From Bacteroidales bacterium (GTDB taxonomy: Bacteria; Bacteroidota; Bacteroidia; Bacteroidales; Bacteroidaceae), in the NCBI GenBank assembly GCA_015060865.1, contig SUXS01000010.1, positions 62,001 to 126,000 on the forward strand: 64,000 bases of DNA. The letters are read 5' to 3'. The notes under the pieces were generated by a model, which saw only the letters and a list, made by a program, of their open reading frames with translations, did no database searches and had not been told where the DNA came from. A program made the translations under genes and the position numbers. Positions 4,550 through 28,242 of the stretch are shown piece by piece; position 1 is the stretch's first letter; the number at the start of each line of letters is the position of its first letter.

Positions 4550-5437
4550 CTATTTTTCGCTTCGCTGATACCCATCTGCATCGCGGTTCTCACGACTCTG
4601 CATGGCAGGCTCCTCGGGACTTTCCGCCGGTTCTTCAGGACGCACGGTAGGTTCCTCAGCACTCACGGTACGAGTCTCGGCCACCATGGCCAGTAGCCCG
4701 GCACCCAACCGCCTGTTCAGCCACAGCGTAGCAAGCACAAAGGCTACCGTTGCTATCGCAGCCCATGTCCACATCATGGCCTCGTCCTGCACCTGCTCTT
4801 CAAGAGGGATGTCTCCGTAGAGTATCATATTGACTGCCGCCACGGAGTTGTTGAGCACGTGGCCTATGATGCCGGGCAGCAGACTGCCGGTGCGGTAGTA
4901 GAGCCATCCGAACATCACCCCCAGGAGGAAGGCAAAGGGTATCTGTGCAGGGTTCATGTGTACCACACCGAAGACGAGCGACGACACGATGATGGCGCCC
5001 CACGGACTCTTCCATGCCTTGAGCAGATACCCTTCGATGCTCCCGCGGAAGAGCATCTCTTCCAATATCGGGGCCAATAGGGCTATGGAGAGCAACCCGA
5101 GAGGATTGCGGCTCATCTCGATGAAGGTGTCCTCCATCGTATTGGGAATACCTGCTTGCTCGATGAGCAGATTGAGCACATACATCGCGGCGAATACAAA
5201 CACTATCGACACAAGCAGCACCTGACGGCTTACCTCTCTATATTTATCGCGCGAGAGATCTACATACTTGAAATGCAGAAGATGCCACATCATTACCACG
5301 GTTGATGCCACCATAGCCACAGAGGTTGTCATCGTCAGGTCCATCGGCGCGATGTATTTCGACACCAGCATCGCCACAGCACTGAATCCCAGCTGATAGC
5401 CGAAATAGTAGATAATTAGTTTTACGATTGTTAGCAT
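4550..5437 (-). CDS. CPBP family intramembrane glutamic endopeptidase (CAAX protease/Abi)
   Basis: Motifs APILEEMLFRGSIEGYL and FGVVHMNPAQIPFAFLLGVMFGWLYYRTGSL; stops with TAG. Confidence 0.88.
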   Translation of the reverse strand: MLTIVKLIIYYFGYQLGFSAVAMLVSKYIAPMDLTMTTSVAMVASTVVMMWHLLHFKYVDLSRDKYREVSRQVLLVSIVFVFAAMYVLNLLIEQAGIPNTMEDTFIEMSRNPLGLLSIALLAPILEEMLFRGSIEGYLLKAWKSPWGAIIVSSLVFGVVHMNPAQIPFAFLLGVMFGWLYYRTGSLLPGIIGHVLNNSVAAVNMILYGDIPLEEQVQDEAMMWTWAAIATVAFVLATLWLNRRLGAGLLAMVAETRTVSAEEPTVRPEEPAESPEEPAMQSRENRDADGYQRSEK

Positions 5438-5535: not shown

Positions 5536-5657
5536 GTGTGTCATCTCGAACGAATCAACGGTCGACGCCCGAAGGGGCTGAAGTCAAAGATTGTGTCATC
5601 TCGAACGGATGTGAGAGATCCCTCGCGCTGCTCGGGATGACACGCTGGGCGTCGACC
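5536..5657. repeat. Nested inverted-repeat intergenic element
   Basis: GGTCGACGCCC (5560-5570) / GGGCGTCGACC (5647-5657) enclose TGTCATCTCGAACGGATGTGAGAGATCC...GGGATGACA; TGTGTCATCTCGAACG also occurs at 5536. Confidence 0.7.
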
Positions 5658-5661
5658 TTCG

Positions 5662-5703
5662 GTTCATCATTCACCATTCATCGTTCACCATTCACCATTC
5701 ATC
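5662..5703. repeat. Heptanucleotide tandem array (6 units, RTTCAYC)
   Basis: gttcatc attcacc attcatc gttcacc attcacc attcatc; contains the ribF stop codon. Confidence 0.9.
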
Positions 5704-6698
5704 TCCCTCACCCTCTCCTTGTCGGCATTGAGTTGGGCAATGAGGTCGTCGAGGCTTTCGAAGGGTTTCTCGTCGCGCAGTCGCTCCATCACCTCCAACC
5801 GTAGTGAACGCCCATAGAGGTCACCCTCAAAGTCGAGGATATGCACTTCAATGCTGCGCTCCTCACCATTGTTCACCGTAGGGCGATGGCCTATGTTGAG
5901 CATCCCCATCCCTAATTGACAATTGACAATTGACAATTGATAATTATTTCCATCGTGACGATAGTTATCGTTCTCGTTGGTGTCATCGTTGTTAACGACG
6001 TTAACCCTCACCGCATACACCCCATCAGCAGGCAGCAACTTATGCTCGTCGCTGACGCGTATGTTGGCTGTGGGAAACCCTATCTTACGGCCCACCTTAT
6101 AGCCATCCACCACCTTTCCTTCGAGCAGGTAGCAGTAGCCCAGCAGGCTGTTGGCCTCAGCGATGCGCCCTTCCTTTATGCAGCGGCGTATGCGGGTGGA
6201 GCTCACCGCTTCGCAGCCATCCATACAGGCCTCACCACGCACCACCTCAATGCCCAGTTCCTCGCCATAGCGCACATAGTCGTCAAAAGCCTCAGTACGT
6301 CCACGCCCGAAGCGATGGTCATACCCGATCACCAGCACCTCCACGCCCAACTGCTCCTTCAGCACCTGCTCCATGAACTCGCGTGCCGTGAGCTGTGCCA
6401 TCTCGTGGGTGAAGGTGAGCAATGCCACCTCATCCATACCCGCCTGGCGCAACAACTCCACACGCTCATCGCGCGTCGTCAGTGAGGTACGCGCATTGCC
6501 ACTCCCCTCCAACACCCGCTTGGGTGCCGTGTCGAAGGTCACCGCTGCAGCTCTCAAGCCACGCTCATCGGCCATGCGGCGCACCTGGCCCAGCAGGCTC
6601 CTGTGGCCGCGATGCACCCCATCGAACGAACCTATCGTGGCAACGCACTTCAATGGAGAATGGAGAATGGAGAATGGAGAATTAAATGCTGAACTATG
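5685..6698 (-). CDS. ribF: Bifunctional riboflavin kinase / FAD synthetase (start uncertain; ORF open to 6737)
   Basis: CVATIGSFDGVHRGHRSLL...VIGYDHRFGRGR...SSTRIRRCI...GRKIGFPTANI...GVYAVRV...NIGHRPTV. Confidence 0.92.
   Translation of the reverse strand, partial: HSSAFNSPFSILHSPLKCVATIGSFDGVHRGHRSLLGQVRRMADERGLRAAAVTFDTAPKRVLEGSGNARTSLTTRDERVELLRQAGMDEVALLTFTHEMAQLTAREFMEQVLKEQLGVEVLVIGYDHRFGRGRTEAFDDYVRYGEELGIEVVRGEACMDGCEAVSSTRIRRCIKEGRIAEANSLLGYCYLLEGKVVDGYKVGRKIGFPTANIRVSDEHKLLPADGVYAVRVNVVNNDDTNENDNYRHDGNNYQLSIVNCQLGMGMLNIGHRPTVNNGEERSIEVHILDFEGDLYGRSLRLEVMERLRDEKPFESLDDLIAQLNADKERVREMNGEW
5914..5941. repeat. Heptanucleotide tandem array (4 units AATTGAY) inside ribF
   Basis: aattgac aattgac aattgac aattgat. 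Confidence 0.95.
6652..6679. repeat. Heptanucleotide tandem array (4 units AATGGAG) in the 5' part of ribF
   Basis: aatggag x4. Confidence 0.95.
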
Positions 6699-6720
6699 CA
6701 TAGCAAGGAGAGTAAACTTA

Positions 6721-6748
6721 CAATTTTCAATTCTCAATTTTCAATTCA
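6721..6748. repeat. Heptanucleotide tandem array (4 units CAATTNN) spanning the end of the HAD gene
   Basis: caatttt caattct caatttt caattca. Confidence 0.9.
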
Positions 6749-7338
6749 GAGCGCCAGTCGCTGTTTGCCTTCGGGCAATAGGTATGGAATCCCAGCGCCT
6801 CGGCCGCATCGCAGCTTGCCTGCAGGTCATCAATGAAGAGCGTCTCTTCGGGCTTGATGCCTGCCAGCTGTGCCACCTTGAGGAAAGCCTCGGGCGTAGG
6901 TTTCAGCTCGTGTATCTCGTGTGAGAGGAATATCTTCTCAAAGTAGTCCTCAGCCTTATGCCCTTGATAGTCGAATAGCTTGCGCCCCTCCTCCCAGTGC
7001 ACGGCATTCGTGTTGCTCAGCAGGAACAGGCGGTAGCGCTCCTTGAGCGAGAGCAGCATATCGAGCTTATAGGCAGGGATATCGAGCAGCAGCGCATTCC
7101 ACGCCTCGTCGATCTGCTCATCGGTAAGTCCGGGAGCATATATGCGGCGCACCGTGTCATGAAACTCCTCCACCGACATCGTGCCCCGTTCAAAGTCCTT
7201 CAAGTCGGCACGCTGCCCGTAAGGGTTGGTCAGTTCGTCACTCACCTCCACTCCCAAGCGGGCAAACGCCTCGGTGCAGCGATGCTTGTCGAGGTGTATG
7301 AGCACACCGCCCCAGTCAAAGAGTATATTCTTTATCAT
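6727..7338 (-). CDS. HAD family hydrolase (HAD-IA, phosphatase-like); start chosen at MIKNILFDWGGVL
   Basis: NILFDWGGVLIHLD motif I; FLLSNTNAVH; FIDDLQASCDAAEALGF. Confidence 0.88.
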   Translation of the reverse strand: MIKNILFDWGGVLIHLDKHRCTEAFARLGVEVSDELTNPYGQRADLKDFERGTMSVEEFHDTVRRIYAPGLTDEQIDEAWNALLLDIPAYKLDMLLSLKERYRLFLLSNTNAVHWEEGRKLFDYQGHKAEDYFEKIFLSHEIHELKPTPEAFLKVAQLAGIKPEETLFIDDLQASCDAAEALGFHTYCPKANSDWRSELKIEN

Positions 7339-7481
7339 AATATCTGTCTTAACCATTATAGATACAAAAGTACGACAAAAATCAGACATTTTAAATGTTT
7401 TTTCCACGAAACACTTGTAAATTTCAAACAAACCCCTTACCTTTGCACTTGCAATTTGAGGGTAACCTCATCGATTGTGTC

Positions 7482-7683: not shown

Positions 7684-7707
7684 TGTTGACTAATTGTTGA
7701 CTAATTT
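7684..7707 (+). repeat. Tandem arm-type repeat, left end (TGTTGACTAATTGTTGACTAATTT)
   Basis: 23/24 match to 18082-18105; internally two GTTGACTAAT half-sites spaced 11 bp. Confidence 0.85.
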
Positions 7708-7720
7708 TATTGCGCATAAA

Positions 7721-8989
7721 ATGCTGACAATCAGAGCAGAAATTAAGAAAAGCGAACAAAGAAGTGACAAAACTTACAATGTAAAGCTGAGATTTACACT
7801 TGACAGGAAGGTCAAGAGGGTTTCTACGAGTTTATTTGTTACAGCTAAGGACTTGACCAAAGACTTAAAAATTAAGCCAAGCTCCCCTATTAAAAAAGAA
7901 GTAGATGCACTAGTGCGTGTCTATCAAGAGAGGTGTGCAAAGCTACAAATAGAACTAAACGACTACACCGTTGATGATATTGTAGACATGTTAAATGGCG
8001 AGCAAGCTAAATCACAGAAGATTGATTTCATCAAGTTTTGTCGTGAGTGGATAGCTAATGCTGAGATAAAGGGTGCTCCAAACTACACGACTGCCGTTAA
8101 TGCTTTAGTACGTTTCGTAGGTAAAGACGAGTTGGATGTTAAGTTGATTACAACTGAGTTCTTGGAACGCTTCAAGGAGTTTCTAAGTAAGGAACGTGAA
8201 GAGCGTGCAAGGAAACTCGCATTGCAAGGAAAGCGATTACCATCAAACCGTGCGCAGTCCCTCTACTTAATGAGCATAAAGAAGTTGTTTAAGGAGGCCA
8301 AGAAGTTCTACAACAAGAAATACAAGAACACGATACTGATTTCTCACTCTCCGTTTGAAGACCTTACTATTCCCAGACAAGAAGCTACACGCAAGAGGGC
8401 TATATCCGCGGAATTGATACGTGAAATTTGGAAACTCCCCTACAAGAATATAAAGAAAGGTTACAGGAATACCTGCTTGTTTGATATGGCCAAAGATTGT
8501 TTCATCCTCTCGTTTGGTCTTATTGGAATGAACTCTGCTGATTTATATTATGCCACTGATTACCAAGATGGGATTATCACTTACTACAGAACAAAGACCA
8601 AGGCACGTAGATTGGATAAGGGTAAAATGCAGGTGGTAGTTCCTAAGATGTTGCTTCCTCTGGTAGAGAAGTACAGAGACCAAACAGGTGAACGCATATT
8701 TAACTTCTATCATTTATATGCCAATGAGAAAGCTTTGAGCAAGGCTCTCAATCGTGGGTTGAAGGAGATAGGTGCATTGCTCAATATAGATGATTTGGAA
8801 TACTACGCCGCGCGTCACTCATGGGCGACTATAGCAGTCAACAAAGTGGGAATAGATAAGTACACAGTACATGCAGCATTGAACCACTTGGATGAATCAA
8901 TGAAGGTTACAGACATTTACATAGAGCGCGACTTTGCTATAGAAAACAGGGCGAATGCCAAGGTTATGGAGTACGTTTTTAATCGTTGA
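7721..8989 (+). CDS. int: Tyrosine-type site-specific integrase (Bacteroidetes conjugative-transposon type)
   Basis: SAM-like N-terminal and catalytic domain; YYAARHSWATIA and TDIYIERDF boxes; box I reads FGLIGMNSADL without canonical Arg. Track start 7694 is TTG; ATG 7721 preferred. Confidence 0.93.
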   Translation: MLTIRAEIKKSEQRSDKTYNVKLRFTLDRKVKRVSTSLFVTAKDLTKDLKIKPSSPIKKEVDALVRVYQERCAKLQIELNDYTVDDIVDMLNGEQAKSQKIDFIKFCREWIANAEIKGAPNYTTAVNALVRFVGKDELDVKLITTEFLERFKEFLSKEREERARKLALQGKRLPSNRAQSLYLMSIKKLFKEAKKFYNKKYKNTILISHSPFEDLTIPRQEATRKRAISAELIREIWKLPYKNIKKGYRNTCLFDMAKDCFILSFGLIGMNSADLYYATDYQDGIITYYRTKTKARRLDKGKMQVVVPKMLLPLVEKYRDQTGERIFNFYHLYANEKALSKALNRGLKEIGALLNIDDLEYYAARHSWATIAVNKVGIDKYTVHAALNHLDESMKVTDIYIERDFAIENRANAKVMEYVFNR

Positions 8990-14521: not shown

Positions 14522-16228
14522 ATGGGAAAATTCAACTTTAGACAGATGTTGGTAGCAGTAGCAACACTCTTGTGCAGCATGACAGCAAATGCTTATGACT
14601 TTGAAGTCAATGGTTTTTATTACAACATTATTTCAACAGCAGATTTAACCGCAGAATTTACCAGCCCTACCGGAAACACATACTCCGGCAATGTAATAAT
14701 ACCATCTAATGTAACATATAAAGGAAGGACATTCACAGTCGTTTCAATAAGTAGAGCCTTTGCTGATTGCAACAATATTACCTCTGTAACTATACCAAAC
14801 TCTGTAACAAACATTGGCGATTTAGCTTTCGCTAATTGCAATAGTTTAACCTCTATAACCATACCTAATTCTGTAACAAACATTGGGAATCATGCTTTTT
14901 GCGAATGCTACAACTTAGCTTCTATAACTATTCCAGGTTCTGTCACAAACATTGGAGATTGCGCTTTTCAACGTTGTGAGAGTTTAACTTCTATAACTAT
15001 CCCTAATTCCGTTGTAAGCATTGGAGGTCTGGCTTTTCAACATTGTGAAAGTTTGACATCTATAACCATTCCTAATTCTGTCACAAACATGGGCAGTTAT
15101 GCTTTTCAGCGTTGTTTATCTCTGGTTTCTGCTACTATTAGCAATTCTATTGGGCGCATTGAAGAGGGTACTTTTTACTGCTGTGAAAGTTTAACATCTA
15201 TAACTATTCCTAATTCCGCCTGGCATATTGGGGCTTATGCATTCTATGGGTGCACAAATTTGAAGGACCTTACATTTGGTCAAAAAATAGCAGTAATTGA
15301 GGAGTCTGCTTTCAAAGAATGCCCTTCTCTCACAACAGTTAATTCAATAAGAAAGACTTTTTATGGGGAGGCCATGAGTTTTTCTTCAGAAGCCTTTGAT
15401 ATTAAAACATATACAGAAGCGACACTACGCATACCTAAAGGGTCTTTAGCCGAATATCAATCTTTGCCATGTTGGAAAGAATTCTGGGATATTGTAGAGG
15501 TTGATGATTTTGAAGATAATGGAGTTATTACTAACTACTATGTAAATGCACGTTATGATTTCAATCAAGGTTCTGTGACCATAAATGGAGTGTCAGGAAC
15601 AAATGCGACAATAAAAGCGAATGAAAAAATTGAATTTGAGATCATCCCATTTGCAGGTTACGAAATTGACAAGATAGATTTGAACGGTATAGATATAACC
15701 GCTGATATCATTAATGGGAAATACACCATTGCAAGTGCAAATGAAGACATTACTCTTGAAGTTACTTTCAAGATACAAACATTCGCTTTAACGCTGAAAT
15801 GCTGCGAAGTTGGTTCATTTGAGATGAGAATAAAATATGGCGAAACAGCAACATGCAAGATTAATCCAAGTGCAAACTGGACAATCAGTTCAGTGACATT
15901 CAATGGAAGAGATGTTACTGGCGAACTCACGAATAATGTTTTCACAACCCCTGCTATCACTTGTGATTCAGAGCTTAATGTGGTGTTTGCAGATATTAAC
16001 ACATCTGTTTACATGAGCAACAGCACCAGAAATGTCATCGTTTCCGCTTCACGACAAACAATCCTCATTAAAGGTCTTGAAGAGAACACTTTAGTAGAAG
16101 TGTTCAATACAAATGGTAACCTTTATTATTCTACAGTAACAAATGATGACGAGCTGAACGTCAGCGCAACTGAGGGTGGTGTTTATGTTATAAAAGTCGG
16201 TGAAAGAACTTTTAAAGTAGTCTTGTAA
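14522..16228 (+). CDS. Secreted BspA-like leucine-rich-repeat (LRR_5) protein
   Basis: Signal peptide; tandem 23-residue repeats SLTSITIPNSVTNIGxxAFxxC; C-terminal sorting-like tail VEVFNTNGNLYYSTVTNDDELNVSATEGGVYVIKVGERTFKVVL. Confidence 0.9.
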   Translation: MGKFNFRQMLVAVATLLCSMTANAYDFEVNGFYYNIISTADLTAEFTSPTGNTYSGNVIIPSNVTYKGRTFTVVSISRAFADCNNITSVTIPNSVTNIGDLAFANCNSLTSITIPNSVTNIGNHAFCECYNLASITIPGSVTNIGDCAFQRCESLTSITIPNSVVSIGGLAFQHCESLTSITIPNSVTNMGSYAFQRCLSLVSATISNSIGRIEEGTFYCCESLTSITIPNSAWHIGAYAFYGCTNLKDLTFGQKIAVIEESAFKECPSLTTVNSIRKTFYGEAMSFSSEAFDIKTYTEATLRIPKGSLAEYQSLPCWKEFWDIVEVDDFEDNGVITNYYVNARYDFNQGSVTINGVSGTNATIKANEKIEFEIIPFAGYEIDKIDLNGIDITADIINGKYTIASANEDITLEVTFKIQTFALTLKCCEVGSFEMRIKYGETATCKINPSANWTISSVTFNGRDVTGELTNNVFTTPAITCDSELNVVFADINTSVYMSNSTRNVIVSASRQTILIKGLEENTLVEVFNTNGNLYYSTVTNDDELNVSATEGGVYVIKVGERTFKVVL

Positions 16229-18081: not shown

Positions 18082-18105
18082 TGTTGACTAATAGTTGACT
18101 AATTT
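18082..18105 (+). repeat. Tandem arm-type repeat, right end (TGTTGACTAATAGTTGACTAATTT)
   Basis: 23/24 match to 7684-7707. Confidence 0.85.
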
Positions 18106-24772: not shown

Positions 24773-24822
24773 TCCTAATCTCCACGCAAGCCCCCCTCGC
24801 GCCACTCTATTACCTATTATAA

Positions 24823-25182
24823 AAATGGCATACGGGGCCATGCCCGTTGCCTATCTTGTAGGCAGCACCGTGGATGATGGCATTGTTGATGTATGCTTTC
24901 GCCGCGCGAGCGGCTTCGGTAAGCGGGAGCCCCCTGGCCAGTTGGGCTGCAAAAGCGCTTGAGAGGGTACAGCCTGTACCGCGGGAATGTTTTTTGGGGG
25001 GAGATGACTCGCCCAGTGGCATCAGGTCGCTCTTCAGCACGACGATGGCGCTGTCCTCGATGAGCTTGTGCCCCGAGGTGGATAACACCGCCTGCAGCGG
25101 CTTCACGCACTATCCAAGCCATGTCGCGACCACCCGAAAGGGGGCGGTCGGTGACAAAGTAAAGGGAGAGGTCAAAGGGTTT
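24823..25182 (-). pseudogene. Collapsed remnant of a second thiE-thiD fusion
   Basis: Near-identical blocks to the 3' and 5' ends of 26749-28242 joined across deletions; fragments [49 protein letters not shown]. Confidence 0.92.
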
Positions 25183-25224
25183 GAGTTGTGAGTTATGAAT
25201 TTTTCAGTTTTCAATTCTCAATTA
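25183..25224. repeat. Heptanucleotide array (6 units) in the thi remnant
   Basis: gagttgt gagttat gaatttt tcagttt tcaattc tcaatta. Confidence 0.75.
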
Positions 25225-26748: not shown

Positions 26749-28242
26749 TTAGTAGAAATGGCATACGGGACCATGCCCATTGCCTATCTTGTAGGCAGCA
26801 CCGTGGATGATGGCATTGTTGATGTATGCTTTGGCTGCGCGAGCAGCTTCGGTGAGCGGGAGCCCCTTGGCCAGTTGGGCAGCAAAGGCACTTGAGAGGG
26901 TGCAGCCTGTACCGTGGGTGTTGGGCGTGTCGACGCGGCGGGCACTGAGTTCGGCCACCTCGCCTGTCTCGTAGTTGTAGAAGATGTCGATGAGTTCGTC
27001 GTCCACCAGGTGACCTGCCTTGAGCAATACCGATACCCCATACTGCTGGGCCAGGCGGCGGGCTGCACTGGGCAGGTCGCCCTGCTTCTCGATAGGCTCG
27101 CCAAGCAGAATCTCGGCCTCGGGAATGTTTGGGGTGATAACTCGCGCCAGCGGCATCAGGTCGCTCTTCAGCACGGCAATGGCGCTGTCCTCGATGAGCT
27201 TGTGCCCCGAGGTGGATACCATCACGGGGTCGAGCACCACATCCTTGACACCGTACTTGCGCAACAGACGCGCCACGCTGCGCACCACCTCGGCTGAGTG
27301 GAGCATGCCTATCTTCACGCTGTCGGTGCCGATGTCGCTGAGCACGGCTTCAATCTGCCCTTCGAGGATGTCGATGGAGAGGCCCTCCACGGCATTTACG
27401 CCCAGCGTATTCTGTGCGGTGATGGCGGTGATGGCCGATGTGGCAAAGCATCCGTTGGCCGAGATACTCTTGATATCGGCCTGTATGCCGGCGCCACCGC
27501 CCGAGTCACTGCCGGCGATGGTGAGGACTCTTCTTAATTGAGAATTGACAGTTGACAATTGACAATTCTCGGAGAGCTCTGAGTACTCGGAGTGCTCTGA
27601 ATGCCCATGGCGGTTATTTCTGATAATCCCCGCCAGCTCTGCTGCTGCTTCGCGGGGCGAGGGAGCTGCCACGATGGCCGATACCACGGCTACGCCCTCT
27701 ACGCCGTGGGCGATGACCTCACCCACGGTGTCTCTGTTCATGCCGCCGATGGCCACGCAGCGGTGGCGCGAGCAGCGCATCACCTCGTCTATACCGTCGA
27801 GGCCGAAGGGGGCGAACGTGTCGGTCTTGGTGGGCGTGGCATACACGGGCGATATACCTATATAATCCACGTCGAGGGCATTGGCAGCGATGACCTCATC
27901 CATCGTCTCCACCGAGAGACCGATAATCTTGTCGCTGCCCAGCAGCTTGCGGGCTGTGGCATAGGGCATATCGCTCTGCCCGATGTGTACACCGTCGGCA
28001 TCCACGGCGAGAGCCACGTCTACACGGTCATTGATGATGAGGGGTATGCCGAGGGGAGCCAGGGCGGCTTTCAGCTCGCGGGCCAGTTGGATGAATTCGG
28101 CTGTGGAGCACTCCTTCTCGCGGAGCTGCACCATGGTGACACCGCCTGCAGCGGCTTCACGCACTATCCAAGCCATGTCACGACCACCCGAAAGGGGGCG
28201 GTCGGTGACAAGGTAAAGGGAGAGGTCAAAGGGTTTAACCAT
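26749..28242 (-). CDS. thiED: Bifunctional thiamine-phosphate synthase / HMP(-P) kinase (ThiE-ThiD fusion)
   Basis: Thi[16 protein letters not shown]...VTMVQLREK...[14 protein letters not shown]; Thi[22 protein letters not shown]...[12 protein letters not shown]. Confidence 0.95.
27536..27603. repeat. Compound array in the ThiE-ThiD linker: 5 x 7 nt followed by 4 x 9 nt
   Basis: aattgag aattgac agttgac aattgac aattctc, then ctcggagag ctctgagta ctcggagtg ctctgaatg. Confidence 0.92.

Follow-up and report, generated by a model that had tools for sequence, protein, structure and literature searches.

In many prokaryotes, heptamers outnumber all other long repeats; a proposed cause of their excess is slippage linked to the polymerase footprint (Mrazek 2007, as summarized in PMC4679880 and PMC4692102). 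Tandem units of 7 nt are over-represented in the Bacteroidales genome described here too, but where repeats in coding regions mainly have units divisible by three, as far as the summaries of that survey go, here non-triplet arrays occur inside core enzymes, at sites that stay fixed while the arrays are replaced. In this genome 7-nt tandems exceed chance and change by whole units between relatives, as heptanucleotide repeats do. Heptamers of the STRR type were reportedly observed in cyanobacteria by Vioque in 1997, including in the RNase P RNA gene; they share with our arrays the location in an essential gene, the difference being that there it is an RNA gene, without a reading-frame rule.

The TAACTGA repeats known from Beggiatoaceae, some Cyanobacteria and Bacteroidetes are located close to starts and stops; copies in ORFs are rare and lie mostly at protein peripheries (PMC4679880). 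They resemble the arrays described here in being tandem heptamers next to starts and stops, with a stop in one orientation and few copies in ORFs, but they consist of one fixed unit, while here many units are found and internal loops of RibF, ArgS, TopB, MnmE and ThiED are occupied. TAACTGA is absent from the 24 dominant units of the 58 arrays in a 756-kb sample of our genome. The GGGAATC and GGGGATT heptamers of Xanthomonas and Nostoc are also intergenic, sometimes form inverted pairs and vary among close relatives, but they are G-rich and quadruplex-forming, whereas ours are AT-rich and also intragenic (PMC4692102). Rickettsia palindromic elements are inserted in frame in many protein genes and are tolerated there; these are palindromes of about 150 bp with conserved peptides, unlike the short tandem heptamers of variable unit described here (PMC10969869). 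Heptamer repeats, some of them genic, are known, and it is the position-conserved replacement of units in core enzymes that looks undescribed. A limited literature search yielded no account of heptamer arrays whose units are replaced at orthologous loops of core enzymes, and none of heptamer arrays in coding regions of Bacteroidales, the latter being weak evidence from a search of this size.

Heptamer arrays of the ribF locus

The window, i.e. the whole stretch of DNA analysed (64,000 nucleotides of contig SUXS01000010.1, assembly GCA_015060865.1), carries the only ribF copy of a genome that is 92% complete. The product was identified by TIGR00083 (E=1e-72) and by FAD_syn and Flavokinase domains above cut-off. 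All three heptamer arrays that a preliminary description had placed at the start, in the kinase loop and at the stop of this gene were recovered by TRF, and a fourth, which had been overlooked, runs over the stop of the neighbouring HAD-family gene (Table 1). The third array does contribute the C-terminal MNGEW and the TGA stop (5687-5685). The N-terminal peptide is encoded by its array as described, but it does not directly precede the next motif, a Lys being situated between it and CVATIG (FNSPFSILHSPLKCVATIG). Likewise, the kinase-loop insertion is present and its array encodes NYQLSIVNCQL, but it had been put at roughly 30 residues and was measured as a net gain of 24 over the 21-residue GVY..NIG loops of ancestral type. 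The arrays, from which a 7-residue peptide period had been read, cover just 1.3-1.6 heptapeptide periods. Four arrays in 1.09 kb correspond to a Poisson P of about 2e-6 at the genome density, for a site that was chosen post hoc and with junction arrays being often paired.

Table 1. Coordinates of genes, arrays and other features in the window
Feature	Position	Strand	Details and basis
CPBP-family intramembrane protease gene, downstream of ribF, co-directional	4550..5437	-	
Palindromic spacer past ribF stop	5560..5658	-	arms GGTCGACGCCC / GGGCGTCGACC, enclosing GTCATCCCGAG..GAGATGACA; sequence
ribF 3' array, sense AATGGTG/AATGATG	5662..5703	-	TRF: 21-mer x2 at 95%, 7-mer x5.6 at 84%
ribF CDS, bifunctional riboflavin kinase/FAD synthetase	5685..6701	-	338 aa, ATG 6701 (MHSSAFNSP...)
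RibF lineage-specific kinase-loop segment, whole (Asn/Asp-rich stretch and array)	5907..6002	-	relatives, model
RibF kinase-loop heptamer array, sense AATTGTC x4.6	5914..5945	-	encodes NYQLSIVNCQL; TRF, 96%
RibF N-terminal heptamer array, sense ATTCTCC x4.4	6652..6682	-	encodes part of FNSPFSILHSPL; TRF, 100%
Fourth array, sense AATTGAA/AATTGAG, over HAD stop (...SELKIEN*)	6721..6747	-	TRF: 14-mer x1.9, 100%
HAD-family hydrolase gene, upstream of ribF, co-directional	6727..7431	-	domain match
Second coding-internal heptamer array, linker of ThiE-ThiD fusion (CDS 26749-28242)	27536..27567	-	
Heptamer-like array immediately 5' of ThiED start codon	28242..28268	-	

Period 7 across the genome and the genus

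The genome was surveyed in 756 kb of stretches. In 392 kb of the genome 30 arrays of period 7 reached a score of at least 10, against none in Markov-3 sequence. The 756-kb sample contains 58 such arrays and at most 12 for every other non-harmonic period, period 7 and its harmonic 14 being by far the most enriched, and AATTNNNAATTNNNAATT occurs 189 times genome-wide compared with 20 times for the reversed control. The units are AT-rich (30% GC on average) and diverse, with 24 different dominant units among the 58 arrays. The arrays of ribF are real and not a product of chance, and the excess is specific to period 7.

The closest named relatives of the window genome are MAGs, mainly from ruminant guts, and all relatives compared are MAGs, with one genome per species. 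Across the genus the period-7 pattern AATTNNN is abundant in most species and nearly absent in two (G004 and G015); in the sister group (G002, G008, G011, G016 and G017) matches to TTAANNN exceed those to AATTNNN, the reverse of the window's group, and in other genera of the family the pattern is patchy. Since every genome is a MAG, the arrays could be attributed to assembly or binning, but this is extremely improbable: arrays of 28-42 nt are shorter than a typical read, and the same positions bear arrays in MAGs of many species from different hosts and projects. The occurrence of period-7 arrays in several housekeeping genes is a property of the whole genome and genus; the preliminary description had recognised neither this nor the replacement of units at fixed positions.

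The ribF gene in relatives

In two relatives (G007 and G018) the HAD stop and the ribF start are separated by 3 nt (TGA-CCG-ATG) and the kinase loop from GVY to NIG is 21-23 residues long. Both the loop (GVYAVWVVIEETYYKGMLNIG) and the protein start (MIAVATIG) of G007 are free of insertions, and the ribF stop of G018 is compact, 12 nt from the next gene; this arrangement appears to be of ancestral type, with empty sites. The insertions are lineage-specific, a point that the preliminary description had proposed to check by alignment. Relatives outside the array-bearing species lack them, so that conserved non-repetitive sequence, which would have spoken against the reading given there, was not encountered at these positions.

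At the N-terminus, G001, G014 and G013 possess a single ATTCTCC unit (MHSSAFNSPLK or MHSAAFNSPLK), while the window genome (G000) has MHSSAFNSP-FSILHSP-LK, which is exactly three units, 21 nt and seven residues more. Apart from this 21-nt insert, its N-terminal stretch differs from that of G001 and G014 only synonymously. An in-frame TTG (6653) follows the array and is a less likely candidate for the start, as MHSSAFNSPLK is common to three relatives (with one S to A); ATG 6701 has good, though not conclusive, support. In G012 the nearest in-frame ATG sits within a heptamer array, and in G003 the start candidates within the array are GTG and TTG only.

The unit in the kinase loop is AATTGTC in G000, G012 and G003 and AACTTTC in G006, and in G013 two AATTCTC stretches flank a core in direct orientation. 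The equal length of the loop array in G000, G012 and G003 fits either slow change or selection on length. Stop-codon units are of the AATTGAC type in G001, G014, G012 and G003, AATTGAG in G006 and AATGGTG in G000. In the sister clade, ribF of G016 and G002 is 96.7% identical in nucleotides, yet the same kinase loop differs in length by 48 nt, made up of six units of the octamer GTCAACGA, a parallel expansion and again by a multiple of three units. The unit length differs from that of the heptamer case, and the site and the frame rule are shared. The steps of three heptamers and six octamers are both in frame, and so are the ribF genes of all relatives in which the gene is readable.

Gain or loss of one 7-nt unit within a coding region is a frameshift and arrays are present at both the start and the stop of an operon gene, as could be expected of a contingency locus in which changes of unit number deliberately switch or tune RibF and its operon by phase variation. 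With ribF in single copy and all readable relatives in frame, we rejected this as the main reading and regard it as highly unlikely; the genes that carry arrays are unrelated housekeeping genes and not surface ones, and RibF is a core cofactor enzyme under purifying selection. Cells would not be expected to survive an OFF state of an enzyme that exists in single copy and is presumably essential.

Constraint and predicted structure of RibF

RibF and ArgS are expected to be essential enzymes. The family-invariant residues are all kept in RibF of the window and its dN/dS is 0.13-0.21; the protein is functionally constrained and under purifying selection. Together with the single copy, this supports the earlier suggestion that repeat-derived peptide is tolerated at three sites of an enzyme expected to be essential. 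The AlphaFold2 model has a mean pLDDT of 88.7 and is confident except for residues 1-17 and 241-260, within which the array-encoded residues fall. The structure prediction of the loop insertion, suggested in the same description, placed it between strands 227-236 and 262-272; residues 241-260 have a mean pLDDT of about 51. By this model the array residues are probably disordered, some at the N-terminus and the others at the tip of a beta-hairpin. The fold is that of solved FAD synthetases, the enzymes of C. ammoniagenes and T. maritima being among the top PDB hits, and when the sequence is aligned to the best solved homologue, the alignment is interrupted exactly at the kinase loop.

Placement and orientation of arrays

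Counts of placement and orientation are based on a simple hexamer gene prediction, in which single calls may be off: 36 of the 38 intergenic arrays lie between co-directional genes, against 266 of 400 gaps of that kind (P=4e-5), and coding-internal arrays are mostly open (10/13). There is an orientation bias, in that units with a stop on one strand have it on the sense strand 7:0 at or after stop codons and 0:5 before starts (Fisher P=0.0013). For 38% of the arrays the same spacer also holds an inverted partner of at least 10 nt, compared with 5.8% after permutation.

Position near starts and stops between co-directional genes, with a strand rule, is also what one would expect if the arrays were recognized by a protein or formed an RNA structure controlling translation of the operon, the coding copies being by-products, and translational control was proposed by MacGregor for TAACTGA repeats before start codons (PMC4679880). 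We consider such a role very unlikely, because 24 dominant units in 58 arrays are unlike a single binding motif and the RNA hairpin predicted by folding at the HAD-ribF junction is weak (z=-1.7). This hairpin is not significantly stable and we do not claim it as a functional element.

Arrays in other housekeeping genes

Coding-internal arrays of the 756-kb sample were found in RibF, the ThiE-ThiD fusion, arginyl-tRNA synthetase, topoisomerase III, MnmE and others, among them an alpha-rhamnosidase, a GH35 enzyme and a GDSL esterase. In several relatives, each of ThiED, ArgS, TopB and MnmE has heptamer arrays in one orthologous loop or linker and the units differ, so that units are replaced at fixed sites; the ThiED linker of relatives contains other units or elements. 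The ArgS site is occupied by heptamer or heptamer-derived sequence in 10 of 10 genomes of the array-rich clade, including a degenerate array below the detection score in G006. The units there are AATTGAC or AATGGAC in four genomes, AATTTTC in two and AATTCAG in three, with an arm-core-arm element in one; in the sister clade the corresponding sequence is similar in length and non-repetitive. ArgS of G000 and G012 is 96% identical over 900 nt before the array and 94% after it, but 60% within; for G000 and G003 identity falls from 92% upstream and 89% downstream to 69% in the array. In ArgS the unit is replaced, with position and length unchanged.

Complete arm-core-arm structures, with differing cores, are located within ArgS of G018 and within TopB of G012 and G009. 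These, the inverted partners in spacers, the direct array-core-array in RibF of G013 and the preference for spacers of co-directional genes would be in accordance with a mobile palindromic element, of which the arrays are the arms and the single RibF arrays are remnants, with an effect like that of Rickettsia palindromic elements. We nevertheless find this origin unlikely. Cores and units vary from site to site, ArgS arrays substitute loop sequence and add no length, the HAD-ribF junction folds only weakly, and the RibF arrays of the window genome are plain direct repeats without terminal inverted repeats and conserved internal sequence. No conserved peptide was found across array sites, and no target-site duplication at filled and empty ribF sites, which are too diverged or too short for their ends to be defined.

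Possible origin of the arrays

Most of these observations are probably explained by period-7 arrays that are prone to slippage and exchange throughout the genus and are filtered by selection for reading frame and for tolerant sites. AT-rich tandem heptamers would arise and change their size through replication slippage, would repeatedly be re-homogenised or swapped among units, and would persist where they are harmless: in spacers within an operon, across stops and starts, and in flexible loops or linkers. Whole-unit steps are what slippage should give, multiples of three units reflect selection for frame, and loops, linkers and ends as sites reflect tolerance. Within RibF only frame-keeping changes would survive, with a net difference of three units, 21 nt and seven residues. 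The orientation that survives at the stop codon would be the one with TGA in every frame, so that gain or loss of a unit alters only the last few residues. We infer that RibF itself draws no benefit from the arrays.

Slippage alone does not readily explain the replacement of units at constant length in ArgS, and the inverted partner arrays in spacers fit it poorly as well. The simplest cause of such replacement may be exchange between arrays or rapid homogenisation. A bolder version is rather doubtful: going beyond passive slippage, an active process would write period-7 arrays into fixed sites or exchange them there, overwriting units in essential genes with length and frame unchanged. Candidate routes would be a dedicated element or ectopic conversion between arrays that share the AATT core.

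Loops and termini of core enzymes here draw on non-triplet repeats as raw material, and the reading frame is seen as a filter in the 21-nt (3 x 7) and 48-nt (6 x 8) steps. As the same loops of RibF, ArgS, TopB, MnmE and ThiED carry different units in different species, they form a natural, replicated test system for the birth and replacement of repeat units and for which protein sites accept new sequence. In proteins of Bacteroidaceae, peptide periodicities such as NCQLSIVNCQL should be taken with caution, as repeats on the DNA level and not as protein motifs.

Other repeats and possible mobile sequences

In TopB and ThiED loops of relatives (L207, L210-L213, L152), Ser-Glu-Asn stretches originating from a 9-nt TCNGAGAAC-like repeat are situated beside the arrays, which indicates that such loops collect several repeat types. 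Palindromic inserts are found in frame at array positions of other species, CCTCCCTGTGAGGGAGG in the ThiED linker of G007 (L155) and CCCCCTCTGTTCATAGAGGGGG in the MnmE loop of G010 (L232). The spacer sequence GTCATCCCGAGC..GCGAGGGATCTCTCAC..TTCGAGATGACAC is present in two operon spacers of the window genome, at 5560-5658 of the window and around 7300-7450 of L112. At 24819-25185 of the window (G000:C29:86819-87185), 1.6 kb from the ThiE-ThiD fusion, fragments 71-93% identical to pieces of thiE-thiD lie in scrambled order and resemble a decayed duplicate. An 11-nt tandem, TGTTGACTAAT.GTTGACTAAT, at 7684-7706 and 18082-18105 flanks a 10.4-kb stretch that opens with a recombinase-like ORF (7694-8989, + strand), and the two copies look like the ends of an integrative element. 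Within this putative element, at 14758-15115, about five imperfect 69-bp tandem repeats have a leucine-rich (BspA-like) appearance.
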